In this document: piece after piece, positions 1-64,000 of the stretch | How positions within the stretch are numbered: position 1 is the stretch's first letter | Layout of the letters: each line of letters opens with the position of its first letter | Assembly: GCA_002355935.1 (NCBI GenBank) | Contig: AP017895.1 | Coordinates: forward strand, 930,001-994,000 | Reading direction: 5' to 3' | Length of the DNA: 64,000 nt | Source: Rothia aeria | GTDB lineage: Bacteria; Actinomycetota; Actinomycetes; Actinomycetales; Micrococcaceae | Position numbers and translations under genes: made by a program | Notes under the pieces: generated by a model | What the model was told of the DNA's origin: nothing | Seen by the model: only the letters and a program-made list of their open reading frames with translations | The model's database searches: none

Positions 1-1191
1 GCGGTGGTGCGGGCATCCGCGGTTGCCGTTGTCGCCTTCGTAGCAGGCGGGGCGCTGCTGCTGTTCGCCTCAATTATGGTGAACTGGGCGCGGATTGTGA
101 GCATCTACCAGAGCCTGCACGCCGGGGCGGTGGGGGATTTCGCGGTCACCATGCTGCAGCTGGGGTATATCCCCAATATGGTCATGCACTCCATGGCTTG
201 GTCCACCGGTTCCGGGCTGTCATTCGGGGCGGGAACGAACGTGGGGCTGGCGCATTCAACCGTACAGGCGCTGCCCCTGTTCCCCTCGGTCGGAGCCATA
301 CCCCAGAACCTTGGGCTCATCGGGTACGGGGCGCTTATTGTGCCGGTGGGGGCAGGATTTTTGGCCGGGCTGTGGTTCTTGCGCGAAGGTGAAGACCACT
401 TTGACGAGTGGGTGGCCCTCAAAATCCGGGTGCGCGCTCTTTCCCTGCCAGTATCCGCGATAGGGCTGGGGGTGCTCGTTGGGGTGTTCACCGGCTTCGT
501 ATCGTTCATACTGGGCTGGCTGTCCAGCGGGTCGCTAGGGGCCGGGCCGTTCACCGAGATCGGGCCGCACCCCGCTAAATTCGCAATGTACACCATGATC
601 CTGGTTGGTGCCGGTACCGCAGCGGGGAACATGATATCGCGCCTATTTGTCTCTGACAGCAGCCGGGAGCTCTCACGCTTTGCCGACGAGAAACCAGCGG
701 TAAGCGAGCGCGTCAACGCCTACTTCGGGTTTGGGGCGCATAAAACCCGCGATGTAGCCCGGCAGGATTCCGCAACGGATAGCCACGAGCCGCGCGCCGA
801 CAACCCGCGCCCGAAAACCCGGCGCAGCTGGGCTCTTTTCGGGGACGAATCTGATACCGCTTCCCGCCCCTCTGCCAACGATGAACCTGCTACCGGTGGG
901 CAGCCGGCAGGCAAAGCGGCCAGCACCGATGAAGAGGTCCCCGAGCAGGAGAGTAAGGCCGCTGCGACGGTTGAGGACGCCGTCGCCGAGCCCAGCGCCG
1001 AACCCAAGAAAAAACTGTTTGAGGTTGATTATTCGGCTCATGATGCTGCAGAAACAACCGAGGTCATAGAGCCGGTGCGGGACGAAGAGGCCGGTGAATC
1101 CGGTGACCAAAACCACCCGCATAGTTCACCGATGGCCGCAATGAACCGCATCTTGGGCCGCCATAAAGACAAGGGTCACCACAAGAGCTAG
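1..1191 (+). CDS. DUF6350 (PerM-like) membrane protein, 5' partial
   Basis: The reading frame is open from the window edge, so the true start lies upstream. About 225 residues hold several hydrophobic segments, including the loop LGYIPNMVMHSMAWSTGSG, typical of the DUF6350 family, whose mycobacterial member PerM is a cell-division-associated membrane protein encoded next to purN-purH. The gene here also directly precedes purN/purH, which supports the call. The last ~170 residues are a charged, probably disordered cytoplasmic tail rich in Glu, Asp, Ala and Pro, ending in a His/Lys-rich stretch. A CCGGGG/CCCCGG hairpin follows the stop. Function beyond the family is not visible in the sequence. 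Confidence 0.75.
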   Translation, partial: AVVRASAVAVVAFVAGGALLLFASIMVNWARIVSIYQSLHAGAVGDFAVTMLQLGYIPNMVMHSMAWSTGSGLSFGAGTNVGLAHSTVQALPLFPSVGAIPQNLGLIGYGALIVPVGAGFLAGLWFLREGEDHFDEWVALKIRVRALSLPVSAIGLGVLVGVFTGFVSFILGWLSSGSLGAGPFTEIGPHPAKFAMYTMILVGAGTAAGNMISRLFVSDSSRELSRFADEKPAVSERVNAYFGFGAHKTRDVARQDSATDSHEPRADNPRPKTRRSWALFGDESDTASRPSANDEPATGGQPAGKAASTDEEVPEQESKAAATVEDAVAEPSAEPKKKLFEVDYSAHDAAETTEVIEPVRDEEAGESGDQNHPHSSPMAAMNRILGRHKDKGHHKS

Positions 1192-1220
1192 GCGGGCTCA
1201 TGGTGCCATTGGTTCTCCGC

Positions 1221-1238
1221 TCCGGGGGATACCCCGGA
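1221..1238 (+). terminator. short GC hairpin after the DUF6350 gene
   Basis: TCCGGGG and CCCCGGA pair across a 4-base loop, 30 bases after the stop codon. There is no T-tract, so it may be a weak or bidirectional terminator between convergent genes. Confidence 0.4.
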
Positions 1239-1244
1239 AGGAGG

Positions 1245-1712
1245 CTACGGGGATTGAGTGCCCAGCTGGGTGGCCTGCCGGTAATAGGTGTCCTGGCAGG
1301 TCTGCTGGTCGCTAACGGTCAATGACTGGTGCAGACAGTCCCGGTACTCCCAGTACGCGGGGGAGATCAGCATTACCAGGCACATGATGAGCAGGAAAAA
1401 CTCGGTCAGAATCCCGAAGCTGGCCAGAACATAGAACACAATGGGGGAGCGTGTGAGCGCGGTGCGCACAATCACCACAATATTGAGCGCCAAACCCGCC
1501 AGCAGCACCACGGGCGCCAAAAGGAAAAACGGCATGGGGTAGGTCAGGCACACCAGCCCCAGGAAGGTGGAGACAACGGCTAAACCCTGGGCTCGGGCGA
1601 TGCGCATTACGGTGCGGCGGCGTTCTTCGGGGTCTGGCGGCTGAGGCGCCCCCAGACGGTTCGGGTGTTGAGGGGCCGTGGGCTGCTTAGTTGGCTGGGG
1701 CGGGTTCTGCAT
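1245..1712 (-). CDS. hypothetical membrane protein, 155 aa
   Basis: The N-terminus is Pro/Gln-rich (about residues 1-30), then two or three hydrophobic segments lie between about residues 45 and 125 (GLAVVSTFLGLVCLTY and FFLLIMCLVMLIS are clear). The C-terminal tail carries two Cys residues (DCLHQ, QTCQD) that could form an extracytoplasmic disulfide. I do not recognise a family. The gene is convergent with the DUF6350 gene and divergent from purN. ATG 1712 is preceded at 7 bases by a TACCCT -10 box with no Shine-Dalgarno, so the mRNA is probably leaderless. The -10 box lies inside a perfect 14-base palindrome (see the site at 1712-1725). Confidence 0.65.
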   Translation of the reverse strand: MQNPPQPTKQPTAPQHPNRLGAPQPPDPEERRRTVMRIARAQGLAVVSTFLGLVCLTYPMPFFLLAPVVLLAGLALNIVVIVRTALTRSPIVFYVLASFGILTEFFLLIMCLVMLISPAYWEYRDCLHQSLTVSDQQTCQDTYYRQATQLGTQSP

Positions 1713-1725
1713 ACCCTTAAGGGTA
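1712..1725 (-). promoter_or_regulatory. palindrome spanning -10 box to start codon
   Basis: TACCCTTAAGGGTA is a perfect inverted repeat. It contains the minus-strand -10 hexamer TACCCT (1720-1725), and its last base is the first base of the ATG. A repressor bound here would block initiation. It may also be chance self-complementarity. Confidence 0.4.
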
Positions 1726-1786
1726 CTGCTTCTTCCGGTGGTGTTTTCGCTGGGCGCGTATCCTACATGCCCCTGTGGCGGTGCGC

Positions 1787-1792
1787 TAAACT
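1787..1792 (+). promoter_or_regulatory. -10 box of leaderless purN
   Basis: TAAACT lies 6 bases before GTG 1799. No Shine-Dalgarno is present, which fits transcription starting at the start codon. Confidence 0.5.
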
Positions 1793-1798
1793 ATTGCT

Positions 1799-2377: not shown

Positions 2378-2481
2378 AACTTCCTGCCCGCACGGCGCCG
2401 CATCCCGGCGTATGCGGGCAGTATTAATACCCCGCCACGGGGTACCACCCATTCACCGAGCAAGAAGCAACGGAGTAATTA

Positions 2482-4232: not shown

Positions 4233-4238
4233 TAAGAC

Positions 4239-9738: not shown

Positions 9739-10811
<1,073 letters not shown>

Positions 10812-11590: not shown

Positions 11591-12952
11591 ATGCGCAACA
11601 CACGTACAAAATTTTTAACATCCCTTAGTTGTTTCGGGGCGCTGTTTACCCTGGTAGTTAGCGGATGCTCCTCAGGTGCTAGCTCCACTAGTACCAGTGC
11701 CTCCAGCTCGGAAAGCTCATCGGCAAGCGCCAGTGCCTCCGCAGCCCCCATCGTCGAAAGCAAAGGCCCCTCCAGTCGTGTAGCTATCACCTATGACGGC
11801 GGCGTACTCGTATACGACGCTAAAGATATGAAGCTGCTGCAGGACATTAAAAAAGACGGGTTCCTGCGTCTTACCCCGCCGGGGATAACCGTCACCTCGT
11901 GGTTGCTGATGGCAACAGTTACGCGTTCTTAGACACGGGGCATGGTCGGTGCCGCACGGGGACCACTCGCACTACTACACGACTACCCCCACCCTCAGCT
12001 CCCTGTCGTTGGCTGCGGATCATACCGGGCATGTGATCACCGATAATGGTAAGAGCGCCGCTTTTGCCGATGGCACCGGCACCTTCGAGGTGTATAGTCC
12101 CTCCGACTTGACCGTGAATAAACGCACCGCCTCCGAGCTGAAAACCCAGCAGGTGAAACTGCCCGCACCGCATCACGGGTTCGCCATTCCGCTGCCGGAT
12201 GGGCATTACCTAGTGTCGGTAGGGGATGAGAAGACCCGCACCGGTGCGGCTGTGGTAGACGCTCAGGGCAAGACTATTACTGAGAATAAAGAATGCCCGG
12301 GTGTTCATGGCGAGGCTATTGCCAAAGACGGTGTGATTACCGTTGGGTGCACCGATGGGGCGCTTATTTACCGGGATGGCACGTTCACTAAGGTGAACAA
12401 CCCTGAAAACCCGTACTCGCGTTCCGGGAACCAGGCAGGCTCGGCCGACTCGCAGTATGTTTTGGCGGACTATAAGACCGATAAAGAAGCCAAACTGGAA
12501 CGCCCCGAGAAGTTTGCCATTATCGACACTGTGGCGAAAAAACGCACCGTATACTCCCTGCCGCAGGGGGTAAGCTACACGTTCCGGTCATTGGGGCGCG
12601 GGCCTCAGGGGGAGGCGCTGCTGCTAACTACCGACGGTAAACTGCGTATTTTGACCCGGCCACCGGCTCTGAACTCGGGTCGGTACAGCTCATGGATGCC
12701 TGGAGCGAATCTGAAACGTGGCAGGATCCGCGCCCGGCCCTGTGGGTGGATGGTAAGACCGCCTATGTGAGCGACCCGGCAACGAAAAAGCTGCACGCGG
12801 TGAATATTGCAGATGCTAAGGCCCCCAAAACCCTGGTGAGCGTTGAGCTGCCGCAGACTCCAAATGAGCTAAGCGGTACATCATCCTCGAAACCGGCCCC
12901 GACTCAGGACCACGGGCACGGTGAAAGCCATGAGGGCGATCATGGCCATTAG
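11591..12952 (+). CDS. AztD-like zinc metallochaperone lipoprotein (three one-base deletions)
   Basis: The protein begins with a lipoprotein signal (MRNTRTKFLTSL, lipobox VVSGCSS) and a Ser-rich linker. Restoring one C near 11874, one G near 11937 and one T near 12649 gives a single 454-aa product. The body looks like a WD40-type beta-propeller; its motifs AITYDGGVLVYDA, VPHGDHSHYY, PAPHHGFAIPLPDG and CPGVHGEAIAKDG resemble AztD, the periplasmic zinc chaperone that loads the AztABC zinc transporter. The C-terminus is His-rich (QDHGHGESHEGDHGH). No zinc ABC transporter genes are nearby. GGTGG gives a weak ribosome binding site. Confidence 0.72.
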
Positions 12953-18118: not shown

Positions 18119-18221
18119 GCGCCCTCACCCAGTCCGATGCGCGGCACCGGGTGGGAAGAAACAGCCCCGCTGCGGGGTGAAAGTTCTTCCTACCGGTGCC
18201 GCGAGGTGTTTAATAGTAAGT

Positions 18222-19470
18222 ATGGTTTTCGCTAATTCACGTTACGATCTTTCAACCCCGGTGTTTGACGAGTGGGTTGCGCGCATGATGCCCACCCTGA
18301 CCGAATTCCGTCGGCAGGTGCACCGCAACCCGGAGCTTTCGTTCCGTGAAGTGAAAACAACCGAGCGTATTATGAATCACCTGCGTGGTGCGGGCATGAG
18401 CCCTGTGGCGTGTGAAGGAACCGGCTGCTATGTGGATATTGGCAACGGCCCGTTCGCCTTAGCGCTGCGAGCCGATATTGATGCCCTGCCCATTGAGGAA
18501 CAGACGGGCTTGGAGTATGCCTCAGCCGTGCCGGGAGTGATGCACGCCTGCGGGCACGATATTCACCAAACGATTATGCTCGGGGTGGCGCTTGCTCTGC
18601 ACGAACTGAACGAGCGCACCCCGCTGGGCCGCAGCGTGCGCATCCTATTTCAGCCTGCCGAGGAGCAGCTGCCGGGTGGTGCGGTGCAGATGATCGACCA
18701 GGGCCTGCTGCGGGGTGTGCCGCGTGCTTTTGCACTGCACTGTGATCCGAAAGTTGATTTGGGGCAGATCGGCACACGTATCGGGGCGATCACCAGTGCC
18801 TCGGATACGATCAAAATTCATTTGAGCGGCCACGGCGGGCACACTTCACGGCCGCATCTGACGGAGGATTTGATCTACGCGATGAGTCAGATCGCGGTGC
18901 AGGTGCCCGCAGTGCTGACCCGCCGCACCGATGTGCGTTCGGGGTTCTGGTCGCCTGGGGGCAGGTGAACGCCGGGGTGGCCCCAAACGCCATCCCCGCC
19001 GAAGGGTATTTGGCGGGAACTATGCGCTGCCTAGACGTTGAGGTGTGGCGCCACGCCGGGCAGCTGCTGGATGAGGTGATTGAGCAGGTCGCGGTGCCTT
19101 TCGGGGTGAACGCCCGGGTGGAGCATATTCGCGGGGTGCCGCCGGTGGTGAACACCGACACTGAGACGACCATGATTGAGAACGCCGCCCGGGCTGAGCT
19201 GGGGGAGGACTCAATCGTGCTGGTGGAGCAGTCTATGGGCGGAGAGGACTTCGCCTGGATGCTGCAGGAAGTTCCGGGCTCAATGTTCCGGTTGGGTACC
19301 CGCGCCCCCGAAGACCCGACATATGACCTGCATCAGGGGATTACAACCCCGATGAACGCGCTATCGGCGTGGGCGTGCGGGTGATGGCTGCGACCGCTTT
19401 GCGTGCGGTGCGTTTTGAGCTGGCAAAAGCCGCGAAGGCCGCAAACCCGGTACGGGATGAGGCCCGGTAG
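18222..19470 (+). CDS. M20-family amidohydrolase (two one-base deletions)
   Basis: This is a zinc-dependent aminoacylase/hippurate-hydrolase-type peptidase. The frame breaks at GGGG 18941-18944 and again at GGGG 19336-19339; one G added at each gives a 416-aa protein ending in PVRDEAR. Motifs in order are LTEFRRQVHRNPELSFRE, ALRADIDALPIEE, MHACGHDIHQTIMLG (metal His/Asp), FQPAEEQLPGGA (catalytic Glu), a dimerisation insert with SGHGGHTSRPH, and the late GGEDFAWML. ATG 18222 is preferred over upstream alternatives because the M20 homology begins just after it. Likely substrates are N-acyl amino acids; the exact one is unknown. Confidence 0.88.
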
Positions 19471-20616: not shown

Positions 20617-20724
20617 CCCTGATATACCGGGTAGGCGATAGAATGGGATGCAGACACACCAGACACACTCAGCTCTCGCCGTGTCCGCCGGGAGCGCCGA
20701 CAAGAACTAGTGGAGGGGACCACA

Positions 20725-23700
20725 GTGGGAATCTTTGGAATCGGCAAGAAAAAATGGGAAGCACAGGTGCGCGCAGCTGAAGAAGCAGCCGCGGCGGAGG
20801 CGGAAGAGCGAAGCCTGAGCGAAAAAGTGATGGAACAGCAGCAGTGGGAGGAATCCCTCCGGAAATTTGTGCGCACCGAAAGCCAGCGGTCCCAGGGTCA
20901 GCGTGTTGTCGAAGAAAACGCACGCCACACCGCTGCATCTGAAGACTTCTTCGAAGAACACGACCAGGACTCCACCGACAGCGCGAACCTGGTGCACCCC
21001 GGCGCTGAGGAACAGGAACTAGAAGCCACAACCAGTGAATCCAGCACCCAAACGCAGGAACCCGAAGACGACTACGACACTGATGACGCGCCCGCCCAGG
21101 ATCCCTACGATGATGAGGGATACGACGCCTCAGCTGAGTACGAAGACGACTATGATGACGAAGACGATGACTACGATGATGAGGACGAAGACGAAGAGAC
21201 CCGTCAGGCGCGCGTAAAAGACTATATGACCCGTCTCGGGCTAACTAACGATGATAACGACCCCGAGCAGAAGATTGAGCTGGTCACCGACGAGACGGTG
21301 CTGCTGCACCTGCCCGACACCCCGGAAGAAGACGCCCACACCACCGTAACGGAACCTGAGACGTACGCGGGGCGCTGCCGGTTATCTCGGCTCAAGATAC
21401 GGGGGCGTCGGTGCAAGAAACAACCGATACCGGGCAGGTTGCTGAGGCGGACGATAGTGAGAACAACCCCGAAGACATCGAGCACTATGTGCCTGCAGGG
21501 CAGGAATCAGTAGCTGGTACAGGCGCAGCACACCAGAGCCCCAGCATCGCCGATGAAGTTGCCTTTAATGCATCGGATAGCCCCGCCGAGGCCCCTGAGG
21601 GAGCCGTGGACAATCATCGTTCGGCGCGCCCGGAGAATGAGGTTGAGCGGTTCGAGGAAGTCCCCATGATCGAGTTTGCCCCGATTCAGAACTCCCTCAA
21701 GAAGCCCAGTGAGAACCCCGTAGCGAGTGCTGAGGAAGAATCGTGGGAACCGCATCATGATGATGCTGAACCTCACGAAGAAGACACCCGAACCCCGGAA
21801 GATTCAGCCGCTGAGGCTGCTGGTGCAGACCCGTTAAGCAGCACCCCCACCCCTGAGCCTGCTGCCGTGGCCGCAACAACGGGCGCGTCTGCGGCTGTAG
21901 CAGACTCTGCGGGTCTTAGCGGCACCAGTGACGACACGCATCACGCACCGGAGCCGATATTTGATGCTCCTGATGCTGAAGTGTTGACTCCTGACAACCC
22001 GCTCTACACGCTTATTGAGACCATGCGCGAGCACGGTCATGGGCAGCTCACCTTTGACCTGCACCAGGTTAATGACGATATGAACTACCGCCTGTACTAC
22101 CAGGGGGATGAGATTGAAAAGGGCGTCGTAGTGCCCGGAACCATCTGGTTCGATTCTGTAGCGGCGCTTTATGTTGCGGCACAGGACTCGGGTACGGTGT
22201 GGACCCGCGCCCTCGTGGCGGCCAGCCCCAGCCTGGGCGGGCGTGTGGCGGTGCAGGCCTCGTACATGAGCGCTGCGGATTCCACGAACTGGGATAAGAA
22301 CTATATTTTCCCGGCAACGGAGCAGGATAACGACGCTGCGGACACTATAGCGGAGGCAGCACCCGCCACGGCCTTTGCGGAGGGCACCGAACCCGGTGCC
22401 GCCCCTGAATCGACGCACGACTACGACGCTGACCCGCTGATGCGCGCCAACGCCGAAAGTGAGCGGGACGAAGCACCCGGCGAGAAGACGCAGGATGGCT
22501 TTGAAACCGCCGATGAGGCAGAGCCTACGCATGATGCGGTGTCGGACGAAACGGCAGACGCTGCGCCTCTGGCGGGCCTTGATGAGACTCAGGCGCCGGA
22601 AGAGCAGGAGACCGCGCTCCGTGAAAACACCCAGGATGAGCCTCTGCCGTTGGGTGGACACCCCCTCAACCTGGTCAAGGCAGATGAGGGCAGCGATGAG
22701 TCTGATGAGGCTATGGAGCTGCTGAGCGAGGCTTCCGAGCGTGATGAAATGCCTCAGCCTGCAGTCGAAGATGCTGTGCTCTCCACCGAAGAGCCTGCGG
22801 ACTCCTTCACCGAGGACCTCTCCGGTGAGGATGTTTCCCGTCAAGACACGCAACAGGACAGCGCCGAGCTGGATGACACCGAGCTGGATGACACCGAGCT
22901 GGATAATGCCAAACTGGACGGCACCGAGGAAGACAGTATTGCAGCCACCACCGATACCGACACGTCTGGGGACCGCAACCAGCCGGGTCAGGCGGGCCAC
23001 GTCAGCCTTACCGCACAGAGTCTAGCTCCGCACACTGACACCACTGCTGAAGCTGAGAACACCTCTGAAGCCGCAGACTCCGGGGCCGAAGAGGAAGACA
23101 TTGATGGGATGGCCGCTGCGCTCGCGGCGATTGTGGCCAGCGCCGAAAGTAAACTTCAGAAGCCGCAAACTCAAGCACCTCTCGCTGAGGATTCTGCGAA
23201 GGACAGCACCCCCGCCCCAACGGTGCACGAGACGGTTGCCGCCCTCAATGAAGGTGCTGCGGCCCCTGACCTGGGCGAGGACGAGCCGGTACAGGCCCCT
23301 GACGACGGTGCGGCAGTTAACGACGATACCGGCCCTCTGCCCGCAGTCTCTTCCGACGCCTCTTGGCAGCAGGACGAGCTTGAGGACACCGCGGCAGGGG
23401 AGAAGGATAAGGAAAACACTGCCGCTGGTTCCAGCAAGATTGTGAACGTCACCTCTGCTGTTGCGGCAAATGATGCTTCAGCTGAGGCCGCCGCCGGGTT
23501 CTTACGCCCCGCCGATGCGCACACGACGAATCTTGTCGATGCTGCCGCTTTCACCCGCGCAGCGGATACCGGTGATGCTGGTACCGAAGCGGACCATACT
23601 GTTGATCCTGAAGCACAGGCCCCCATGACGGGCGCTGCGGACTTGGATACTGTGACTGCCGCAGCCAGCGAGGGCACGGCCCATCGCGGCCCTGAACTTC

Positions 23701-24374
23701 CCGAGCATGTGGATGATGAGGAGCTGGTACCTGCGGTTGAGAAGGAGTCTTTACTGGCTCCCGTGCAGCAGACTGCTGCTGAGACGGAGACAGAGCAAAA
23801 GCCTGAATCCACGTGCTCGGATCCCGATACGCCCACGGTCTGCGCTGATCCGGATACCCCCACCGTACAGCCTGCCGCAGATGTGAGTGTGCTCTCCGAT
23901 ACGAAGCTCGCCGAGGGGAACCTGACTCTCACCGAGGCGCAGGTGGCGCATCGTCTGGCTCCCGTGGTTGAGGCCTTGTTCGGTGAGGGCGGCACGGCTA
24001 CGGATGCCACTACGGTGCTGATTCGTGTGCGTGCCCTTGGCTCGTACTATGACGCCCTGACGCATGTGCGCCGTAACGGGTTCTGGGAGCAGGTGCGCAC
24101 CTTCGACTTGGTGCCTGAGGAGACCCTGGATATTCCGCGGCTGAAGACCGATTCGTATAGTGAGGGTGAGGGGTCGCCACTGGCGATTAGTCTCACGTTC
24201 ACCCCGGGGGTTCCGGTACAGGCGGCGTTCGATTATTCGAGTGAACAGGCGTTTGTGCGGTATCCGCGCCAGCTTGAGGCGGAGCGTTATGTGGAGGAGC
24301 TGCGCATGTTCCCGCGCCTTGGCGCTAGGATTCCTGCGCATATGGCGGCTGCGCTGGCGCACTGGAACCTGTAA
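20725..24374 (+). CDS. giant acidic protein with two globular modules (one-base deletion)
   Basis: Adding one G at GGGG 21369-21372 joins two frames into one 1,216-aa protein. GTG 20725 has GGAGGGG 6 bases upstream. The N-terminus (about 1-60) is a Lys/Ala/Glu helix-forming stretch. Residues ~100-170 are almost all Asp, Glu and Tyr. A first folded module lies at about 425-530 (FDLHQVNDDMNYRLYYQGDE, WDKNYIFP), then ~540 residues of Ala/Glu/Asp/Thr-rich, probably disordered linker with short repeats (ELDDT three times; DPDTPTV twice), then a C-terminal module at about 1,065-1,216 with YVEELRMFPRLGARIP. Both modules vaguely resemble YezG/DUF600-type immunity domains. There is no signal peptide or membrane segment. 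Function unknown. Confidence 0.7.
22867..22925 (+). repeat. short tandem repeat in the acidic linker
   Basis: A near-perfect 15-base unit (GAGCTGGATGACACC) is repeated three times, then degenerates, coding for ELDDT repeats in the giant acidic protein. Such units can expand or contract between strains. Confidence 0.7.
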
Positions 24375-28209: not shown

Positions 28210-28274
28210 CCGCCAGCTGCTGTGCATACCACCTGCAACGCTCAAACCCGGCAAAACCTAGATTGGAGCCTGAG

Positions 28275-33288: not shown

Positions 33289-33306
33289 GAGAGTACCTTG
33301 CCAGAA

Positions 33307-33330
33307 ATTTACTTTCCTTATCAAGTAAAT
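33307..33330 (-). promoter_or_regulatory. inverted repeat in the doxX promoter
   Basis: ATTTACTT and AAGTAAAT are exact inverted copies across an 8-base spacer. The symmetry and position suggest the operator of a dimeric regulator of doxX. Confidence 0.45.
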
Positions 33331-33403
33331 ATGAAAGAAAGGCCTCTGAATACAGATTATTCACAGCTAAATCACAGGTTTAGCGTGATGTGTATCTCAA
33401 AAA

Positions 33404-41291: not shown

Positions 41292-41773
41292 CTACTTCTT
41301 ACGGCACGAATCCACGGTCACGGTGGTCGCCTCAGAAAGGATACGTAAACTCACGCTGTGCCGGCTCACCCGCTCATTACCCTGTTCGGCAGTATTCGGC
41401 GGAATCTCAACTTCAGTCCAGCCCACCGGAACACGCGAAGAGTTCAAAGCTTTGACCGAACAGATGGCCGCATCGTGCGGGTTTTTGAGAGTTCAAACTC
41501 GCCGGATGCCTCATCGTGACTCACCAGCGTGAACCCCATGTCGCGGGCGCTGGGGCGTGCGGCGGCATCCGTCTGAACCCAAAACACGAAAGCCCCCGCC
41601 AGCAGGGTCACCACAGCAGCTAGGGCCACCCACAGGCGGGTGGGAACTGTGCGGCGGGGCCTGGGGGAGCGGCCGTAACGGTCAGCCAGGTTTGGTGATG
41701 CCGGTGCGCCCGTAGCGGAAATTTTCGGGGTTTCCTCAACGGCGGGATGATGACGGTGAGCGTCTGCGGTCAT
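41292..41773 (-). CDS. DUF4307 membrane protein (one-base deletion)
   Basis: After a Pro/Arg-rich start there is one membrane helix (LWVALAAVVTLLAGAFVFWV, about residues 48-67). The frame breaks at five T bases (41482-41486, A on the coding strand). One added base restores ELSKNPHDAAICSVKALNSS and continues to a stop at 41292, for 160 aa, the usual DUF4307 size. The outer domain is probably a small beta-sandwich; function is unknown. It lies divergently from mca, as in mycobacteria. Confidence 0.82.
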
Positions 41774-41977
41774 AAATACCTCCCAGCCGGTGCATTAACA
41801 GTCATTGACGGGTTTCCTGTAACAACGGTTACAGCCGTTCATAAAGCGTCACGAGTACTAGGCACACGACGCGAATCTTCGGTACTATGTCACAACGAAG
41901 CGGTTATGTGCCTCTTCCATTTTAGTCCCTGAGCGGATACCACACAGACGGCACTAGATACTTGAAGGAACACACAC

Positions 41978-42945
41978 GTGAGCGACGCTGTAGCAAGACT
42001 AAAAGCCCAGCTCCCCGAGCACCCCTCGGTGGATGAACTGACCCCTCTCGCAGATGATTACACAGGCCTGCGTATCCTCGCAGTTCACGCCCACCCTGAC
42101 GATGAGTCGTCTAAAGGTTCTGCCTCAGCAGCCGCATACACCGATAGGGGCGCCCGCTACATGGTCGCCACCATGACCGGCGGTGAACGTGGAGACATCC
42201 TGAATGAAGAGATTAAACACAGCCCCCGCGACCACCGTGACCTTCCAGGGATGCGCCGCAGCGAAATGGCTGCCGCCGCGAAGGCGATCGGTATTGAGCA
42301 CCGTTGGATGGGGTTTGTGGATTCTGGCCTGCCCGAGGGTGACCCTATGCCTCCGCTACCTTTTGGGTGCTTTGGGGTGCAGCCCCTTGAACGTGCGGCG
42401 GCACCGCTGGTGCGCCTGGTGCGCGAGTACCGCCCGCATGTGATGATCAGTTACGACGAGATCGGCGGGTACCCGCACCCCGACCATATTATGAGCCACA
42501 AAGTCGCTGTTGAGGCATACGAGAAAGCCGGTGACCCCGAAGCATACGTGGGGAGGGGCAGCCGTGGGCGCCCCTGAAACTCTACTACGACCGTGCGTTT
42601 AATCCTGAACGGTTGGTTGCGGGACACGAATTTCTCATGGCTCGTGACGGGCAGAGCGTATTTTCGGGGTGGATAGAAAACCTGGTTGATCAGGTCAGTA
42701 CAGAAGGAATCCGTCACGAAAGCACCACGCGTATCCCCAGCTCCGCCTATTTCGACCGGCGCGACCAAGCGATGCTGGCCCACGCCTCACAAATCGACCC
42801 GAACGGCGCATTTTTTGCGATTCCTACAGAGGACGTGAAGAAGGTATGGCCGTGGGAAGACTACACGCTGATCGCCTCACGGGTGCCGGTGGACCTGCCG
42901 GAGTGCTGCCTCGCCGACGGGCTGGATTATAAGGCGGCTGGCTAA
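41978..42945 (+). CDS. mca: mycothiol S-conjugate amidase (one-base deletion)
   Basis: Mca is a zinc amidase that cleaves mycothiol S-conjugates of toxins, releasing mercapturic acids for export. The zinc motif [23 protein letters not shown] and the metal-binding HPDH ([12 protein letters not shown]) are present. The frame breaks at GGGG 42550-42553; one G restores [19 protein letters not shown] and gives 322 aa. GAAGGA precedes GTG 41978. It marks the organism as a mycothiol producer. Confidence 0.92.
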
Positions 42946-43511: not shown

Positions 43512-44329
43512 GTGAGCGCCACTAATACCGCCATGATCCCGGTCATCACCGTACACGGTATAGCCGCCGAACCGGGCGTGACACCCGCCCCGAGCGTTTA
43601 TGAACGTTCCCTCATTGACTCTTTAGCAGCACAGTCGCTGCCCGAGCACATTGGGGTGCTGGTGGACGGCAACCGCCGGTGGGCGGCCCAACGCGGACTG
43701 AGTACCCGTGAAGGACACGCCGCAGGGGCAGAACGCATTATTGATTTTTTGGGGTGGTGCACCGAGCTGAACATCCCGCGAGTAACCCTTTACATGCTCT
43801 CCACCGAGAACCTCAAACGCCCCGCCGGGGAACTGAGCGGCTTAATCAGCGTGATTGACGAGTTCCTTAACCGGCTGGTGGCCAGCCGCGTAGGCCCCGT
43901 GAACGCGGTAGGAAACATCGCCATGCTACCGCAGAGCCTGCGCGCCACCTTAGAACAGGCTATAACAGCCACCTCAACGCTGCCCGGGGTGCAGGTAAAT
44001 ATTGCGGTTGGTTACGGTGGGCGCCAAGAGATCGCCGATGCGGTGCGTGAGCTGCTGCGTGACGCCGCCGCCGCAGGAACCTCCGTGCAGGAGCTGGCCG
44101 CCTCCCTGAACGTCACCGACATTAACCAGCGGCTGTATACGCGCGGAATGCCCGACCCCGACCTGCTGATCCGCACCTCGGGGAGCAGCGCCTCTCGGGG
44201 TTTATGACCTGGCAGAGCGCATACTCAGAACTGTACTTCTGCCGTGCCCTGTGGCCCGATTTCACGCGCGTGGACTTTCTGCGGGCGCTGCGCGACTACG
44301 CGGGCCGTAACCGCCGGTTCGGATCCTAA
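43512..44329 (+). CDS. uppS: cis-isoprenyl diphosphate synthase (one-base deletion)
   Basis: This enzyme extends isoprenyl diphosphates to polyprenyl lipid carriers. [15 protein letters not shown] carries the catalytic Asp; [20 protein letters not shown] and the terminal [21 protein letters not shown] are family signatures. The last motif appears only after adding one G at GGGG 44180-44183; the full protein is then 272 aa and ends at 44329. GTG 43512 has GAGG 6 bases upstream; ATG 43500 is an alternative. Two related homologues exist in mycobacteria (short-chain Z-FPP and decaprenyl synthases); this position matches the short-chain one. Confidence 0.9.
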
Positions 44330-44957: not shown

Positions 44958-45005
44958 GCGGCGCAGTAACCGCCGTACTATCGAGTTAAGAAGGAGGGGC
45001 ATTAA

Positions 45006-45508
45006 GTGCCAACCCCGAATACATCCTCACTCTGCGGGAGAAAATCGGTCATGACTACCTGTGGCTTTCGGGCGCTACGGCTGTTATCCGCCGCGACTCT
45101 GACCACCGTGTGCTGCTGGTGCGCCGCAGCGACAACGGCGCGTGGACACCCGTGACGGGTATCGTGGACCCCGGCGAGAACCCCGCACTGACATGCCTTC
45201 GGGAGGCGCATGAAGAGGCGGGGGTGAAGATTGAGGTGCTTGCGCTCGCGCAGCTCAAAGCCGACCCCGCCATGCGGTTCGGTAACGGGGACCGGTGCCA
45301 GTTTCTGGATCACACGTTTTTGTGCCGCTGGGTTGCTGGTGATGCGCGCGTCAATGATGACGAATCCACCCAGGTGCGCTGGGCGGATATGACGGACCCG
45401 ACCGAGCGGGCCATGCTCTCAGAAAGGATGCTTGACCGTATTGATGCAGCCTTAGGCTATGACGGCCACTGCAGGTTTGGGTACGAATCGGTGTCTCCGA
45501 AGGGGTAA
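45006..45508 (+). CDS. NUDIX hydrolase (one-base deletion at start)
   Basis: The NUDIX box is GIVDPGENPALTCLREAHEEAGV (shown here as GENPALTCLREAHEEAGV), with REAHEE binding metal. GTG 45006 has AGGAGG upstream, but the frame then lacks one base near 45011; adding it gives MPNPEYILTLREKIGHDYLW and 167 aa, the usual start of actinobacterial members. NUDIX enzymes hydrolyse NDP-X compounds; the substrate is unknown. It lies 48 bases after the prepilin peptidase gene. Confidence 0.86.
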
Positions 45509-45655: not shown

Positions 45656-46548
45656 ATGCGCCTCGAATCGTTCAAAAACGCTAAGAGTTCCCTGCCCAGC
45701 CGCCGTTTAGCCTGCGCCTTAGCCCTCACCGGGGTGGCGTCGTTGCCGCTGACCCCAGTGCTGGCCGAACCCGAACCCCTCAACGGCCCTGGGGACGACA
45801 CTCAGAGCTTCTTACCGAAGCTAAACCTTTCCCTGACCGAGAACGTCAACCCGTACATTCCGTGCACCATCTACGTGGAAGGCACCGGGTTTTACGGGGT
45901 GCAGCTTGGTCAGCGGGTGAGCGTCTATGTGGGTCTCACCGAAGACACCAGCAAACCCGAGTATTTTCCCGAAACCATTGATGACACCCACCTAGGTTTT
46001 GTGCACGTACCCGCCGAACGCATAGAGGATGGGGCGTTTAAAACGGAGCTTGTCACCGGGCAGCTCTGGTACGGGCAGTATCGTGCAGGGCTAGAGTACG
46101 CGGTGAAGACCATGATTAGCTACGCCGAAAGCACTGAGGAAGGGCATCGCACCTCCGAAACCACCAAATACGATACGCAGACCCCCATTACCGTGCTGAC
46201 GGAGAGCCCTCGGCTTGACTTCGATAAGAACCCCAGCGCCGCTGGCGGGAGCATCACGGTACACGGTACCGGATTTGAAAGCCGGTACATTCCTGCCGGT
46301 GCGAGGTTGCGGCTATTTATTAACCGCGCTGGGCTGGGTGAGCCCGGGCATTTAGCCCCCGACCCAGTTTCCCTCATTACCGTGGGCCCCGAGAAGATCA
46401 ATAACGGTGCTTTTGAAGTGAACATACCGTATGTTTCCGGCCTGGATACCACCAAAAATACACCCTTGGGGTGCAGATTATGAGCAAAACGGGCACTCTC
46501 GCCAACGACGCACTCACCACGGCTGAAACGTTCATGTTCACTGCATAA
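45656..46548 (+). CDS. secreted protein with two Ig-like repeats (one-base deletion)
   Basis: An N-terminal signal peptide ends near VLAEPEP. Two related beta-rich repeats follow: about residues 60-180 (IYVEGTGFYG, VPAERIEDGAFKTEL) and 195-297 (ITVHGTGFESRY, VGPEKINNGAFEVNI). The last part is out of frame; one A near 46454 restores TTKKYTLGVQIMSKTGTL and a stop at 46546-46548, giving 297 aa. It has no sortase motif or anchor, so it is probably released or surface-associated by other means. I do not recognise a named family. Confidence 0.7.
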
Positions 46549-51071: not shown

Positions 51072-52065
51072 ATGACTGAGAACAACAATAACCACGGTAG
51101 CCGTAACCTCGCACTGGAGCTCGTGCGCGCCACCGAAGCCGCCGCCATCGCCGCAGGCCCCTGGGTGGGGCAGGAGATAAGAACGCCGCAGACGGCGCCG
51201 CAGTGGACGCAATGCGCTACCGCCTCTCCTCCGTGAACTTCAACGGCACCGTCGTCATTGGCGAAGGTGAAAAAGACAAGGCCCCCATGCTGTTTAACGG
51301 TGAAGTCGTTGGTGACGGCACCGGCCCCAACCTCGACATTGCGGTAGATCCCATCGACGGCACCCGCCTGACCGCACTCGGCATGAATAACGCCCTCTCC
51401 GTGATTGCGGTGGCCGATGGCGGCTCAATGTTTGACCCCTCCGCCGTGTTCTACATGGAGAAGCTCGTAACCGGCCCCGAGGCCGCAGACTTCGTAGACC
51501 TGCGCCTGCCCGTGAAACAGAACCTGCACCTGGTCGCCAAGGCTAAAGGCAAAAAGATCAACGAACTGACCGTGTGCGTGCTTGACCGCCCCCGCCACGC
51601 CAAGCTGATCGAAGAAATCCGCGCCTGCGGTGCCCGTACCCGCATTATCCTTGACGGTGACGTCGCCGGCGCTATCGCCGCCTGCCGCGAAGGAACCGGT
51701 GTTGATGTGATGCTCGGCACCGGCGGCACCCCGAAGGTATTGTTGCTGCCTGCGCTATTAAAGCCACCGGGGGCGTTATCCAGGGCCGCCTGGCACCCAC
51801 CGATGACGCCGAGCGTGAGAAGGCGCTCGCCGCTGGGCACGACCTTGACCGGATCCTCACCACTGATGATTTGGTCACCAGCGATAACTGTTTCTTCGCC
51901 GCAACCGGTATTACCGACGGCAAGCTGCTGCGCGGTGTACGGTACGGCAAGAACATTGTGACCACCCAGTCGCTGGTCATGCGCTCCTCCTCTGGCACTG
52001 TGCGCACTGTTGAGGCGGAGCACCGTCTGCAGCGTATGCAGGAAATTCTCGCGCACACCCACTAA
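51072..52065 (+). CDS. glpX: class II fructose-1,6-bisphosphatase (two one-base deletions)
   Basis: GlpX dephosphorylates fructose-1,6-bisphosphate in gluconeogenesis. The frame breaks at GG 51173 (restored as [19 protein letters not shown]) and at CCG 51731-51733 (restored as [20 protein letters not shown]). The full protein is 331 aa, a normal size. Other motifs are [18 protein letters not shown] (metal Glu) and [12 protein letters not shown] (metal Asp). GAAGGTGAG precedes ATG 51072. Confidence 0.93.
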
Positions 52066-54914: not shown

Positions 54915-56104
54915 CTATAGCGGCCTGCCATCACGCAGAATAGAGGCAGCATTCGCGGCAATATGACGCAGCTGCTCAAGTTCATGCGCACCGCCGGTAA
55001 CGTTTACGTGACCAATCTTACGCCCCGGCCGGGGTTCTTTGCCGTAGAAATGTATTTTTGCGCGTGGCTCCGCACTAAAAGCCAGCGGATACACACCGAA
55101 AATGTCATCATGTTCCCCGCCCAGATAATTCTTCATCACACTCACTTCAGCAAGGGCAGATGCATCACCCAGCGGTAGGTCAAGCACCGCACGCAGGTGC
55201 TGCTCAAACTGGCTGGTGACTGCACCGTCTTGGGTCCAATGCCCGTATTGTGGGGGCGCATCGCCAGCTCATTAATATAGAACCCGGATGCAGAGCCGGG
55301 AACTTCGAACAGTTCGACAGCCATTACCCCGGTCACGCCCAGCTCTGTGGCGATGTGCACCGCCGCCTCAGATGCGGCTGCGGCCACCTGCGCTTCAAGG
55401 TTCGGGGCGGGGGAAATCACCTCATCGCACACCGAATGTATTTGGATTGTTTCAGCCACAGGCCAGGGGATAACCTGCCCGCTCTCACGGCGGGCCACCA
55501 GTGCCGACAGCTCGCGGGTAAACGGTACTTTCTCCTCCGCCAGAAGTGAGGAAAAATCGGTGCGTGATTCCAACTGGTCGAACCAGCTGGCGGCGCGTTC
55601 ACGAGCGTCCCCAGCAGATTCGAGCACCAGCACACCTTTGCCGTCATAGCCTCCGCGCGGGGTTTTGAGTACCACCGGCCAGCCGGTCGCATCCCCGAAC
55701 TCAAGTAGTTCGGTGAGTGTACTCACTTTAGCCCATCGGGGGTTCGGCAGCCCCAGCCGTTCGATCGCCGCGCGCATGAGCAGCTTATCTTGGGCGTACT
55801 GCAGGGCTTCCGGGCGTGGCTGCACATTCACGCCCTCTGCAATAAGGGTGTGCAATAGTTCGGTGGGAACGTGCTCATGGTCGAACGTAATCACGTCTTT
55901 ACCGGCCGCGAACTCACGCAGGGTGTCAAGGTTTTTGTAATCGCCTACTACGGCGGTACGCACCGCAGCTACGGCACCCACCTGAGGGGTTTCGGCGAGG
56001 ATATGCAGATTCAATCCGAGATTTGTTGCCGCCGGTGCCATCATGCGGGCTAACTGTCCGCCACCGATCACGCCAACTACTGGTCCAGTTACAGGGTAAG
56101 TCAC
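54915..56104 (-). CDS. purK: 5-(carboxyamino)imidazole ribonucleotide synthase (one-base deletion)
   Basis: PurK carboxylates AIR with ATP and bicarbonate. Motifs: [39 protein letters not shown] and the ATP-grasp end [14 protein letters not shown]. The frame breaks at CCC 55242-55244; one base restores [19 protein letters not shown] and the conserved C-terminus, giving 396 aa. GTG 56104 has TAGACT 8 bases upstream; a leaderless start is possible. The carbonic anhydrase gene nearby could supply bicarbonate, but that link is loose. Confidence 0.94.
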
Positions 56105-56298
56105 ATCACCTAAGTCTAGCGGTTAGCCAATAACAACGGTAGTAAGCTGCACATAGGCTCCCATAAAACTGGGAGTTGACTTGTAAAGGGGCAGCTGAGA
56201 AGGCATATTCGTATGTGGTGTACTACCATTTCAAGGTAGGTAGAAATACATGCGGCCCAGTGAACTATCCTCACCGGGGGCAAAACAAGAAGGTAAAC

Positions 56299-57040: not shown

Positions 57041-57852
57041 TTATTTCCCCTGGCGGCGGGTATCTACAGCCCGTTCACTTGCAAGAATCGGTGCTATCTC
57101 TGCTGGGGTAAAACCTGCTGTGGGGTCGGTGATGAGTACTGCATAGCCAGCTACGAGAGCCCCGAGTACCTCGCAGACAATGGCGAGAGCATTTTCGGGT
57201 GTGCCAAAACTATGCTGAGAGTTAAGCAGGACTGCAAGGGCTGGTTCTCCGCTGTCAAGCCGCACCTGATGGGAGTCAAAGCTGCGGGCCTGCTTGAGTA
57301 TTTCTGCGAGCACATCCGCATTGGTGACTCCGGCGAGCACCTCTGTGGTGGGGTGGGGCGGCATGCCCATGAACTGATCCGCTTCGCTGCGTACCAGGGC
57401 GCAGAAATCCAGGATTTCGCCGTCGTAAACATTAAAGACAGCTTCGGAATCACCCGTATAACGCATGGCCAGCGGCCCCGGTCAATGAGCAGCAGAAAAT
57501 CCGGGGAACGAGTAAAGCGTGCTGCGGTGGCAGCGTCTAACGCTACGCCAACCTGCGGTTCATTACTGTTCAGCAGCGCACCTGCCCTTAATGCCGCCAA
57601 GCAGAGAGCAACACAGCGCCAGTGCACATCGGATTCTATGTGCAGGGTGCTGCCTTCTTCGACCTCGCACTCATTGAGGAGCAGGTTTGCGCTTTTATCA
57701 ACCCAGTTCATGAGCACCCGCCCCGAAAGCTCGATCCGTTCCCCGCTGCGCGAATGCCAGATAATGGCTGGTGTTTGTACTGCAGCGAGAGCATGAAAAA
57801 CCTGGTTGAGAGAGCGTGCGGTTGAAAGTTTGGGGAGTAGATTTTCTGCCAT
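57041..57852 (-). CDS. TIGR03089-like protein (one-base deletion)
   Basis: TIGR03089 proteins are short homologues of the N-terminal part of AMP-forming ligases, with no catalytic motif known. The frame breaks at CCCC 57476-57479; one base restores LLIDRGPLAMRYTGDSEAVF and gives 270 aa. WVDKSANLLLNECEVEEG and the middle CLAALRAGALL resemble the family. ATG 57852 has TATGGT 6 bases upstream and no spaced Shine-Dalgarno, so it is probably leaderless. Confidence 0.75.
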
Positions 57853-59143: not shown

Positions 59144-60567
59144 ATGTCAGAGGATCGCCAGAACGTCGATACGGCCGCCGAGCCTGATGAGAAAGGCTGG
59201 GAGGCGCTACGCCCCGCCGTTAAATACCCCGTGGCTGAGGGCGCTTTAGACGAGGCTCCTGCCGCAGATTCGCCGCAGGAGGACGTGCAGGACACCCAGC
59301 CTGAGACGCAGACGGGGGCGTTTGCGCGCATCCGGGCCGAGGCTCCAGGTACGGCGGCTGAACCAGATGTGGCCACCGGGGCTGTACCCATTGCTCCCGC
59401 ACGGAGCAAATTGGGGGAGCGGGGCGTAGGGCAGCGTGTGCGCACGTACACGAGTGTCTCGACCGGGTTCATCCCGTTGGTGCGTGAGGTTCATAATGCC
59501 CCAAGAGTCCTACCCTGAGCGCGTTGAGCCGGGATGCGCGCCAAAAAGAGCAGGAGGAAGCGCTGGCGGCCGCCCAGTCGGTTGAAGAAGCTGAGGCTAC
59601 TGAAGCGGCGAAAGAAAAGCCCCGCCAGAAGGAATACCGCACTGAGACGACCACCAGCAATAAGGTGGTGCGCGTCGCTGCGGACCCCGATGAGGTTGAT
59701 ATTCCCAAGGAATATATTGACGTTCCCAAACCGGGTAAAGCCGAAGCAGTCAAGGTTGCCCCTAAGGCTGAGCTGATAGTGCTCGATAAGCCGCCTCTTC
59801 TTCGTCTGCGGTCAACTATTATTACCCTCGCGGTGCCGATTCTGGTGATAATGATCGCGGTCCGTGCGGTGGCTTCTGACGCATTCCTGTGGCTTGAATA
59901 CCACCGCCCCGGGTTCCCGGCAGATGCCTACGGGTTTGATACCGCTGAACGGATGCGGTTGGGCTCTTACGGACTTAACTATGTGACGAACTTCGCACCC
60001 CGCTCATATTTGGAGAGTATCACCACCGGAGCGGAGCATAAATCTGCGTTTTTGCCCGATGAAGTGGGGCATATGCATGATGTAAAACTGGTCATCCTGT
60101 ACTCCACCGCCGCGGCGGTACTGATGCTCATCCTAGCGTTCATCTCAAGCGCAACCCTGCGGGAGCGCGCCCCCGGTGTTATCCGCCGCAGCCTTTTCAC
60201 CGGTGCGTGGCTGACGGTGGGGATTCTGGGCGTACTTGCTGCCGTTGGTATTTTCAGCTGGGATTGGCTGTTTACAACCTTCCACACCACGTTCTTCCCG
60301 CAGGGTAACTGGCAGTTCCATTTGAACGACACACTGATCCGCTTGTACCCGCCGCAGTTCTGGGTAGATGCGGCCATTGCCGTTGCGGCCCTGAGTATGC
60401 TGATTGTGCTCCTGCTGATGGGCTACACCTGGCCCACTCGCTACCGTAAACAGGTGGCCCTGCGCCGCAGTGCCGAACGGTTCGCGGCACTTCAAAAAGC
60501 TGATGCTCAGGTGCAGGAGGCAAAGCAGGTGAGCGCCTCCCAGCAGGCTTCCCGTTCCAACGGATAG
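59144..60567 (+). CDS. DUF1461 (TIGR01906) membrane protein (one-base deletion)
   Basis: Adding one C at CCCC 59499-59502 joins the two halves (REVHNAPKSPTLSALSRDA) into 474 aa. The first ~215 residues are acidic/Ala-rich and probably disordered. Then come four membrane helices with the DUF1461 signature TFHTTFFPQGNWQFHLNDTL and LIRLYPPQFWVDA. Function is unknown. The start ATG 59144 lies in a stretch without a strong ribosome binding site. Confidence 0.82.
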
Positions 60568-60924: not shown

Positions 60925-62546
60925 CTAAATCCAGAAAGAGAACCACATATGGTGCAGCCACTCGTTATAAGGGATAGTCTGCCCCGTCCATAGCGGCCAG
61001 AAGTAGGCACTCATCAGCAGTACCGCCACCAGGTACACGCCCGTAAAGTACAGGCCCACCCGTTTGCGTCGCACTGAGCTGCCCGAATGGCCCAGCACCA
61101 GCCCCAGCACACCGGCAAGTATCAGAATCAAAAACGGCTCGAACGAGAGAGCATAGAAGTAGAACATGGTGCGGTTCGGGTAGAGGAACCACGGGAAGTA
61201 ACCCACGGCAAAAACGAAGAGCAAAGATGTAAACCGCCAGTCACGGCGCACAATGGTGACGATCAAGGCCACCAGGATCGCCGCAATAAAAGCCCACCAG
61301 ATCAGCGGGTTGCCGATATTGAGGATCGCCTCAGAGCAGGAAGAGGCGGTGCACCCCTTCGACCCCATCTTTGGCGACTCATAGTAGTACGAGGTAGGCC
61401 GCCCCAGCAGAAGCCACTTCCACGCGGGAGACGCATACGAATGGGGGCTATCTAGCTTGGAATGGAAATTAAACGCCGAAACATGGTACTCCCAGAGCGA
61501 ACGCAGATCGGTCGGCAGCCACTGAACCCCCTGCCCGGGATTATCCTGCGCCCAATGCCGGTAGAAAGCGTTCGATGACTTAAACCAGCCCGCCCACGTG
61601 GACAGGTACACAATAAGCCCCACACCAATCATCTGAACGAACGCGGGCAGGCCCTCACGGAGCACACCCACAACCGCCCAGTTCTTCAACCCCAGAATAC
61701 GGCGTGCGTTCACATCCCAGAACACGGTCAGCAACCCGAAAGCAGCGATAAAGAACAGCGAATTCCATTTCACGCCCACAGCCGCACCGGCGCACACGCC
61801 AGCGGCCAGCCTCCACAGATGCCACCCCGAACCAGGACCAAACACAAGCTGAGGCAGCGTGCCGCCGTTCTGCTGGGCCAGAGCCGCCACTTTACGTGCC
61901 AGCACCCGCCGCGATTGCTGCCGATCTAAGAGCAGGCACACAAAAGTCGCTAAAATCCAGAACATCTGGAAAATATCCAGCAGTGCCAGACGGGACTCCA
62001 CAAACATGAGCCCATCCACGGATGCGAGGATCGCGGCGATAGTAGCCACCGTCATAGAACGGAACAGCAACCAGGCCGCATACGCCACCAAGGCCACCGA
62101 CAACGTACCAATCAGCGCCGCGCTAAAACGCCACCCAAACGGGTTATTATCCCCAAAATCGCCATCCCGGCGGCGATCATCCACTTACCCAGCGGAGGGT
62201 GAACCACATACTCGGGGGAATCCGTCAGAAGACCTGAAGGGCTCCCCGCCACGAAGGTTCCGTTCGCCTCCTTCGTCCAGTTCAGCTCATACCCGTAATG
62301 CAGGTACGAGTAGGCGTCCTTCGCGTAGTACGTCTCATCAAAAACAATCGCGTTCGGGTGTGCCAAATAAACAAAACGCAGTATGCCTGCGAGCACCACC
62401 ATCAGGGCGGGTACAACCCATGCCCAGCGGGGCGCAGACACGCGGGCCACACCCAAGCGGGCGAGCATACTCAACTCATTAAAACGCTCGGACATTGATG
62501 AACGGCCCGAGCCTACGGGGGAAAGAATACCGGTTTGTAACGTCAC
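60925..62546 (-). CDS. pmt: protein O-mannosyltransferase (one-base deletion)
   Basis: Pmt moves mannose from polyprenyl-phosphate-mannose to secreted proteins at the membrane. The 540-aa protein has about ten membrane helices. Motifs: FDETYYAKDAYSYLHYG (catalytic Asp-Glu of the GT-C fold), VVHPPLGKWMIAAGMAI, and VESRLALLDIFQMFW. The frame breaks at AAAA 62155-62158; one base restores AIFGDNNPFGWRFSAALIG. GTG 62546 has TACGAT 6 bases upstream, so it is probably leaderless. Divergent pairing with rsmI is conserved in mycobacteria. Confidence 0.9.
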
Positions 62547-62552
62547 CTAAAC

Positions 62553-62558
62553 ATCGTA
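62553..62558 (-). promoter_or_regulatory. -10 box of leaderless pmt
   Basis: TACGAT on the minus strand, 6 bases before the GTG. Confidence 0.5.
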
Positions 62559-62647
62559 GAGGCTAATCCCCCAGAAAGCCATATTTCGGGCAGGTTAGGG
62601 GATTATTCCGCAAGAAATTTTATTCCGCCCAGCCCCGAACCATGGCC

Positions 62648-62653
62648 TACACT
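62648..62653 (+). promoter_or_regulatory. -10 box of rsmI
   Basis: TACACT lies 6 bases before GTG 62660, matching the leaderless pattern seen at other genes here. Confidence 0.5.
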
Positions 62654-62659
62654 GGGAAG

Positions 62660-63615
62660 GTGAGCCGCATGAAACCACACAATAAAACAACACCCCTATG
62701 CCCGAGGCTGAAACACCAGACCAAGCACCTGCTGAACACACCGGGCCGCACGCAGCAGCACATGGAACTGGCGGCGGTGTCCTCATCCTCGGCGGGACCC
62801 CCATCGGCAACCTCTCAGACGCCAGCGACCGGTTACGGCAGGCACTCGCTACCGCCGACGTAATCGCCGTCGAAGACACTCGAAAGCTCCGCACCCTCGC
62901 CTCCGGGCTGGGGGTGCGCACCACGGGGCGGGTTATTGTGAACCACGACCATAATGAGGAATACCGCAGCACCCAGCTCGTGCAGGCGGTCAGCGACGGG
63001 AACACGGTTCTGCTGCTCTCAGACGCCGGTATGCCAACCATCTCAGACCCCGGCTATGTTGCAGCATGCGCCGTTGCCGACGCAGGCCTGCCGGTGACCG
63101 TGATCCCCGGCCCCTCTGCGGCCTTGACCGCGCTCGCGCTCTCGGGACTGCCCACCGGGCGGTTCACTTTTGAGGGGTTCCTGGCCCGTAAAGGCTCGGA
63201 ACGTACCCGAAGGCTAAACTCCCTGGCGGCGGAAGAGCGCACCATGATTTTCTACGAATCGCCGCATCGTGTAGCCGCCACGCTCACAGATTTTGCCCGG
63301 GTTTTCGGGGGCGAACGGCGTGCCGTCGTATGCCGCGAACTCACCAAACTGCACGAAGAAACCCTGCGCGGCACCCTGAACGAACTCGCTGGCTGGGCGC
63401 GCGCAACCCAGGTGCGCGGAGAGATCGTGATTGTGGTCGCTGGCGCCGAGCCTGCCGAAACTCCACAGGCGCAAGATATCGTGGGCCTCGTCCTGGAACG
63501 GGTGGACGCAGGCGAACGCCTCAAAAACGCGTGCGCCGCTGTCGCCGCTGAAACGGGTGCCTCCAAACAAGAGCTCTACGCAGCTGCCATTGCTGCCCGA
63601 AACGTCAACCCCTAA
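62660..63615 (+). CDS. rsmI: 16S rRNA (cytidine-2'-O-)-methyltransferase
   Basis: RsmI methylates the ribose of C1402 in 16S rRNA. Motifs are ILGGTPIGNLSDASDRL, DVIAVEDTRKLRTLA, LLLSDAGMPTISDPGY, VTVIPGPSAALTALALSGLP and FEGFLARKG. The frame visible as ATG comes at 62698, but there is no ribosome binding site there. GTG 62660 sits 6 bases after a TACACT -10 box; adding one C at CCCC 62693-62696 joins them (318 aa). I therefore prefer GTG 62660 as the start, with less certainty than the rest of the gene. Confidence 0.9.
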
Positions 63616-63650
63616 AACACACTTCAACACAGCCCGCAGGAGAATACCGT

Positions 63651-64000
63651 GTGCCAGAGCCGCCCGAGCAAACCGAACTCACCCAGGAATATCTAGATTC
63701 CCTTGCCACCCTGGCACACTCTACGGTGCCGAACGAACAAGAGCTGAGGGCGAGCGCCCTTCCACACGGTTGGCAGGTTGAAGAAGGGCAGACCCCCGCA
63801 CCCTACCGCGCCGAGCTTTACCGGGACGAGACCGGGGAGGGATAGCGCAGGAACCTTCGGGCGAAGGAACCCGACGCCGTTCCACAAAGGGCGATAACGG
63901 GCGGTCCCGTAACCTTGTGTTCCCACCTGCGCCCGAGCCTCTGCCGTATGCCATCGTCGATAACCACACCCATATGGATCTGCTCGATGGCGAAGTAGAA
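63651..64000 (+). CDS. tatD: TatD-family hydrolase, 3' partial (one-base deletion)
   Basis: GTG 63651 opens a Glu/Pro-rich start (MPEPPEQTELTQEYLDSLAT). It stops early at TAG 63843; one G added at GGG 63839-63841 keeps the frame open into PLPYAIVDNHTHMDLLDGE, which is the start of the TatD metal-dependent hydrolase (HxH motif in DNHTHMD). The gene runs off the window. The long N-terminal part is not conserved. TatD enzymes are 3'-5' DNA/RNA exonucleases; linkage with rsmI is common. Confidence 0.78.

Follow-up and report, generated by a model that had tools for sequence, protein, structure and literature searches.

Why should so many genes in one stretch of the Rothia aeria chromosome each lack a single base? 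The stretch in question, called the window here, is 64,000 bases long and covers bases 930,001–994,000 of the single-contig genome of R. aeria JCM 11412 (AP017895; 2,588,680 bases). An initial annotation, made from the letters of the window alone, had counted about 25 single-base deletions in about 21 genes, essential ones among them, and had put them down to sequencing or consensus error rather than to gene decay. That judgment is borne out by a one-sided loss of bases across the genome, by breaks in the single-copy genes trpS and glpX, by the making of the record as a PacBio RS II assembly, and by the copies of the ribosomal RNA (rRNA) operon, which differ from one another in run length alone. 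The last of these is internal to the genome and is the strongest evidence. Judged from the assembled sequence, the breaks in the window are almost certainly consensus errors of a PacBio-only assembly and not mutations, and in living cells the genes concerned are probably unbroken.

The published account of the genome describes an assembly from one PacBio RS II single-molecule real-time (SMRT) cell, with P6-C4 chemistry, HGAP and SMRT Analysis 2.3 (PMC5201055). Contig coverage is given there as 191.68× and 171.9×, short reads are nowhere mentioned, and the type-strain record is presented as complete, with 2,799 RAST coding sequences. By that account, the record is an RS II assembly without correction by accurate reads.

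One-Sided Breaks in the Window

Breaks were detected by frame-aware protein-to-DNA alignment of the genes of four Rothia genomes (G005, G013, G014 and G004) to the window. G005, presumably R. dentocariosa ATCC 17931, is the closest genus member among the genomes compared, while the closeness of G013 to G014 means that these two do not count as fully independent references. Frame changes of −1 and +2 denote a missing base in the window, and those of +1 and −2 the opposite, an extra base. With G005 (54 genes), 22 changes of −1, one of +2 and one of −2 were found, that is 23 missing versus 1 opposite; with G013 (46 genes), 20 of −1 and one of −2 (20 versus 1); with G014 (46 genes), 20 of −1, one of +2 and one of −2 (21 versus 1); and with G004 (50 genes), 20 of −1, two of +2, four of −2 and one of +1 (22 versus 5).

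A break was called firm when at least two references placed it within about 30 bases and inside a gene. Clustering gave 20 such breaks, to which the one in tatD, dropped by the filter as the gene is cut at the window edge, was added separately. The resulting 21 firm breaks lie in 16 genes, with one base missing at each, and with three weaker ones (in doxX, in an Ig-like gene and at the start of a NUDIX gene) the number of genes rises to 19. The earlier tally thus stands for the most part; its break at the start of rsmI found no support, as the reading frame there runs open from 62698 and can be aligned unbroken with all four references. No opposite-sign break inside a gene was found in the window with at least two of the four references.

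As controls, the relatives were aligned to one another in 12 runs of 51–70 putative genes each. These gave between 2 and 21 changes of mixed sign, 1–10 in the missing-base direction and 0–11 in the opposite one, as against 20–23 and 1–5 in the window, and a one-sided excess like that of the window was seen in none of the 12 runs. The firm breaks also gather at homopolymers. A G/C run of at least four bases lies within 9 bases of 14 of the 21 sites (3.2 expected; maximum of 10 in 5000 draws), and a run of at least four of any base within the same distance of 17 of the 21 (4.8 expected; maximum of 12). In the window, five stop codons were met, all in alignments of G005 genes at doxX, DUF501 and 58.3 kb.

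Missing Bases Across the Genome

The comparison with G005 was extended to eight stretches, comprising the window, 40 kb on each side of it, and 20 kb each at 100, 400, 1300, 1700 and 2400 kb. A strict filter removed the rRNA area, genes shorter than 100 residues or less than 60% identical, and events lying no more than 15 residues from a gene end. This left 141 genes and 49,697 aligned codons, with four events at gene ends and eight stop codons put aside. A looser filter (180 genes; 96 changes of −1, six of +2, ten of +1 and five of −2) was discarded because it took in false open frames over an rRNA operon and gene ends. Under the strict filter there were 82 changes of −1, two of +2, two of +1 and one of −2, or 84 missing bases versus 3 opposite changes, and missing-base changes occurred in all eight stretches. 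The 56 genes of at least 90% identity contained 31 changes of −1 and none of any other kind, with two end events dropped. In aligned coding DNA the 82 events of −1 come to about 0.55 per kb, which, extrapolated to the whole genome, would mean missing bases of the order of a thousand. The number differs between regions under the same filter, with 23 breaks in the 40 kb from 994 to 1034 kb and 3 in the 20 kb from 2400 to 2420 kb, a difference that may be due to chance.

Raw counts of single-base gaps (46 in the R. aeria genome versus 32 in G005, over 46,691 aligned positions) were too noisy to be used alone, with many gaps in diverged stretches, and so homopolymers with matching flanks were compared run by run, over 97,858 positions at which the aligned DNA was at least 76% identical. 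Among the G/C runs of G005, 13 of 61 of length five were one base short in R. aeria, against 2 of 246 of length four and 1 of 856 of length three. In the reverse direction G005 was short at 0 of 48 G/C runs of five (Fisher's test between genomes, p = 0.0005). The initial annotation had placed the losses most often in GGGG or CCCC or in A/T runs. In conserved DNA the excess lies at five-base G/C runs and not at A/T runs of five, of which 1 of 43 was one base short in R. aeria (p = 0.007 for G/C versus A/T runs of five), the same 1 of 43 as in G005. The longest run near the 82 events was a G/C run of four at 46 of them and of five at 5, and the 46 sites with four bases divide on the coding strand into 24 of G and 22 of C.

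The rRNA Operons as an Internal Test

Of the three rRNA operons in the R. aeria genome, copy a lies at 403.6 kb, copy b at 1209 kb and copy c where the record begins. Across about 4,990 bases they share the same order of runs and show not one substitution, yet at 14 homopolymer runs their lengths diverge by exactly one base, with different copies short at different runs. If the longer form is taken as right, copy a has 2 short runs, copy b has 4 and copy c has 12. Farther out in the flank, one substitution separates two of the copies. With the gene limits set by Rfam for copy a, ten of the 14 variable runs fall in the 23S and one in the 16S gene. At four variable runs, nine relatives, represented by 15 operon sequences, have without exception the base that is missing in one or two R. 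aeria copies. The copies of G013 do not differ from one another; in G014 a difference is seen at one run, and in G005 a short difference in the spacer sets one copy apart.

That mutation should have struck conserved rRNA by run length alone, copy by copy, is not credible. Recoding cannot explain the differences either, because rRNA is not translated. If the record begins at hand-joined contig ends, copy c would lie there, and its having most of the short runs would fit a contig-end effect. The comparison of run lengths among rRNA operon copies is a cheap error test that needs no reads and can be applied to any genome with several operons.

Weighing the Explanations

Reads made by a single polymerase molecule are prone to skip bases within homopolymers, and a consensus built from them may settle one base short. 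For the R. aeria assembly, the proposal is that reads skipped homopolymer bases, that the consensus step dropped one base from roughly one in five of the five-base G/C runs, and that the short runs would then split genes that are intact in the cell. The findings have the marks of this class of error: deletions prevail over insertions (84 versus 3), are more frequent in longer runs, occur in both coding and non-coding DNA, and differ among the copies of a repeat.

The same homopolymers are natural hot spots for insertions and deletions, and most of the affected genes are found intact in other members of the genus, as would be expected if the strain, perhaps a mutator lineage, had truly lost these bases and now carried many pseudogenes. 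Such decay should leave lesions of mixed kind (insertions, deletions, stops and larger losses), whereas the changes are one-sided, with 8 stop codons in the 141 genes. It should also spare single-copy core genes and rRNA, yet trpS and glpX, both single-copy, are hit along with 16S and 23S, the rRNA operons vary in run length only, 11 of these 14 variable runs belong to the mature 16S or 23S sequence, and the closest relative has no short run among the 48 G/C runs of five compared. Gene decay is thus very improbable. Programmed −1 ribosomal frameshifting or transcriptional slippage, which could restore the frames, would account for every firm break having the same direction, but the losses are not confined to translated genes, the relatives hold the same genes unbroken, and the sites share no common flanking motif; a comparison of the 46 four-base G/C sites with 449 intact G/C runs of five gave no clear motif (lowest p = 0.036 among 10 positions, uncorrected). 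Recoding can be regarded as having a vanishingly small chance of being the cause.

A special form of artefact, which overlaps with consensus error, would have a modification or structure of R. aeria DNA make single-molecule sequencing skip bases of G/C runs. The excess at G/C runs of five and not at A/T runs of five speaks for it, as does the density of the short runs despite a reported coverage of 172–192×. No flanking motif clearly parts short from intact runs, however; the concentration of short runs in copy c would fit a contig-end effect; and the part of PMC11649196 consulted describes one-base shortening of G/C runs in other RS II assemblies. This form is considered unlikely, and there is an equally slight chance that the high density stems from some chemical or structural trait of the DNA, such as an undescribed modification, beyond a weakness of the consensus alone. 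Weak polishing, uneven coverage and unusual DNA are all conceivable causes of that density.

Several points weigh against consensus error. Not all of the breaks lie in G/C runs, as the longest run near the 82 events was an A/T run of four or five at 11, a G/C run of three at 12 and an A/T run of three at 5, with no run of at least three at 3. The density exceeds that of the published parallels despite the reported coverage. The evidence is the assembled sequence of one R. aeria strain. The noisiest controls, with changes of both signs, were G014 genes on G013 (21 changes) and G013 genes on G014 (18); here, false open frames that align well between close genomes are probably responsible. Consensus error nevertheless remains the preferred explanation, and on the evidence of the sequence the breaks do not reflect the biology of the organism.

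Among the R. aeria papers listed by searches on frameshifts, pseudogenes and the accession, none reports this error, as far as titles and abstract openings show. Claims of pseudogenes or gene counts that derive from AP017895 are unreliable and, like those of gene loss or auxotrophy, need checking.

Affected Genes and Candidates Set Aside

The affected genes of the window are collected in Table 1, in which names were confirmed through Pfam or NCBIfam matches of the G005 orthologues, except for the giant acidic gene, whose G005 orthologue has no match to any Pfam family.

Table 1. Genes of the window with firm or possible missing-base breaks (window positions; four references were compared).
Gene	Position	Strand	Break	References	Profile
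trpS	9781..10808	+	one, near 9.82 kb	4/4	TIGR00233 on orthologue
AztD-like	11591..12919	+	three, near 11.88, 11.94 and 12.65 kb	four each	
M20 family amidohydrolase (peptidase)	18198..19467	+	two, near 18.94 and 19.34 kb	four each	PF01546, TIGR01891
giant acidic gene	20677..24371	+	one, about 21.37–21.40 kb	three, 40–42% identity	
ppx	28263..29238	+	two, near 28.42 and 28.57 kb	four each	PF02541
doxX	32891..33390	-	possible, near 33.14 kb	G005 only	PF07681
Bax1-I-like	36185..37101	+	one, near 36.63 kb	four	
ilvA	38761..40010	+	one, near 39.03 kb	four	
DUF4307 gene	41295..41779	-	one, near 41.48 kb	two, G005 and G004	PF14155
mca	41978..42924	+	one, near 42.55 kb	four	TIGR03446
uppS	43512..44326	+	one, near 44.18 kb	four	TIGR00055
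NUDIX gene	45005..45508	+	possible, few codons past start	three frames read by eye	PF00293 on 45110–45508
Ig-like gene	45704..46518	+	possible, near 46.46 kb	G005 only, 34% identity	
glpX	51072..52059	+	two, near 51.17 and 51.73 kb	four each	TIGR00330
purK	54918..56113	-	one, near 55.24 kb	four	TIGR01161
TIGR03089 gene	57062..57852	-	one, near 57.48 kb	four, 36–52% identity	TIGR03089
Lit (DUF1461)	59177..60519	+	one, near 59.50 kb	three	PF07314
pmt	60928..62471	-	one, near 62.15 kb	four	PF02366, PF16192
tatD (cut by window edge)	63666..64000	+	one, near 63.83 kb	G005, G013, G014	PF01026

Neither trpS nor glpX has another copy. The trpS match at the window is the sole one in the genome and covers residues 30–363 of 363, and glpX is present as just three pieces, all at the window locus; uppS has a full-length paralogue, 35% identical, elsewhere in the genome. 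The two pieces of ilvA match adjoining parts of one profile (PF00291, positions 2–69 and 71–295), and those of the Bax1-I-like gene match positions 20–80 and 80–232 of PF12811. The AztD-like orthologue scores 357 bits against NF038015, under the cut-off of 400. At the Lit break, the G004 gene starts downstream of the site. The pieces of the Ig-like gene in the window match no Pfam family, and orthologues of the giant acidic gene were aligned in three of the four relatives, at 40–42% identity.

Some candidates were not counted. A break in DUF501, seen with G005 only, proved to be a change in the G005 gene, as G013, G014 and G004 align unbroken; the frame in the window (27619–28209) is intact and spans positions 2–138 of PF04417, while the G005 counterpart (L095:10889–11353) looks frame-shifted in its 5′ part. 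A −1 change near 54152 and a −2 change near 20724, both seen with G013 and G014, lie upstream of a likely gene start and immediately ahead of an in-frame GTG start, respectively. The opposite changes seen with a single reference are the −2 change with G005 near 14.53 kb (14528), which falls at the likely start of the gene or upstream of it, and those at 808, 28259, 42022, 54246 and 54292, which lie at gene extensions together with the remaining single-reference changes at 834, 1795, 43453, 51071 and 58318.

Outside the window, the record has already been put to practical use. The part of PMC13081337 consulted describes primers designed on AP017895.1 coordinates and places TrkA at 886,348–886,496. 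The open frame at those positions of the genome has a TrkA-N domain. TrkH (genome positions 886479–887797, about 42 kb before the window) consists of two overlapping frames, each of which matches a different part of PF02386, and is likely a further gene split by the same kind of error.

Comparison with Published Assemblies

Errors of this kind have been described in two other genomes. The assembly of Enterococcus faecium ATCC 700221, made with P6-C4 chemistry and HGAP_3, held 561 homopolymer deletions after three rounds of Quiver at about 300× (PMC4888979). It resembles the R. aeria record in its chemistry and assembler, in the loss of single homopolymer bases, and in that the reported coverage did not correct them. 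It differs in that the 561 deletions are spread over about 3.2 Mb and were mostly removed with Illumina reads, whereas R. aeria has about 0.55 per kb and a report in which short reads go unmentioned. The second genome is that of Propionibacterium freudenreichii, a high G+C actinobacterium, for which the consulted part of PMC11649196 reports that G/C homopolymers of 4–10 bases are one base shorter in RS II assemblies; in strain TL19, all 80 of the 80 differences outside a misassembly were deletions. As in R. aeria, G/C homopolymers in PacBio-derived assemblies end one base short, but by the same partial source the errors in P. freudenreichii were fewer, and only 3, 5 and 8 differences were left after Illumina polishing that added 10–138 bp.

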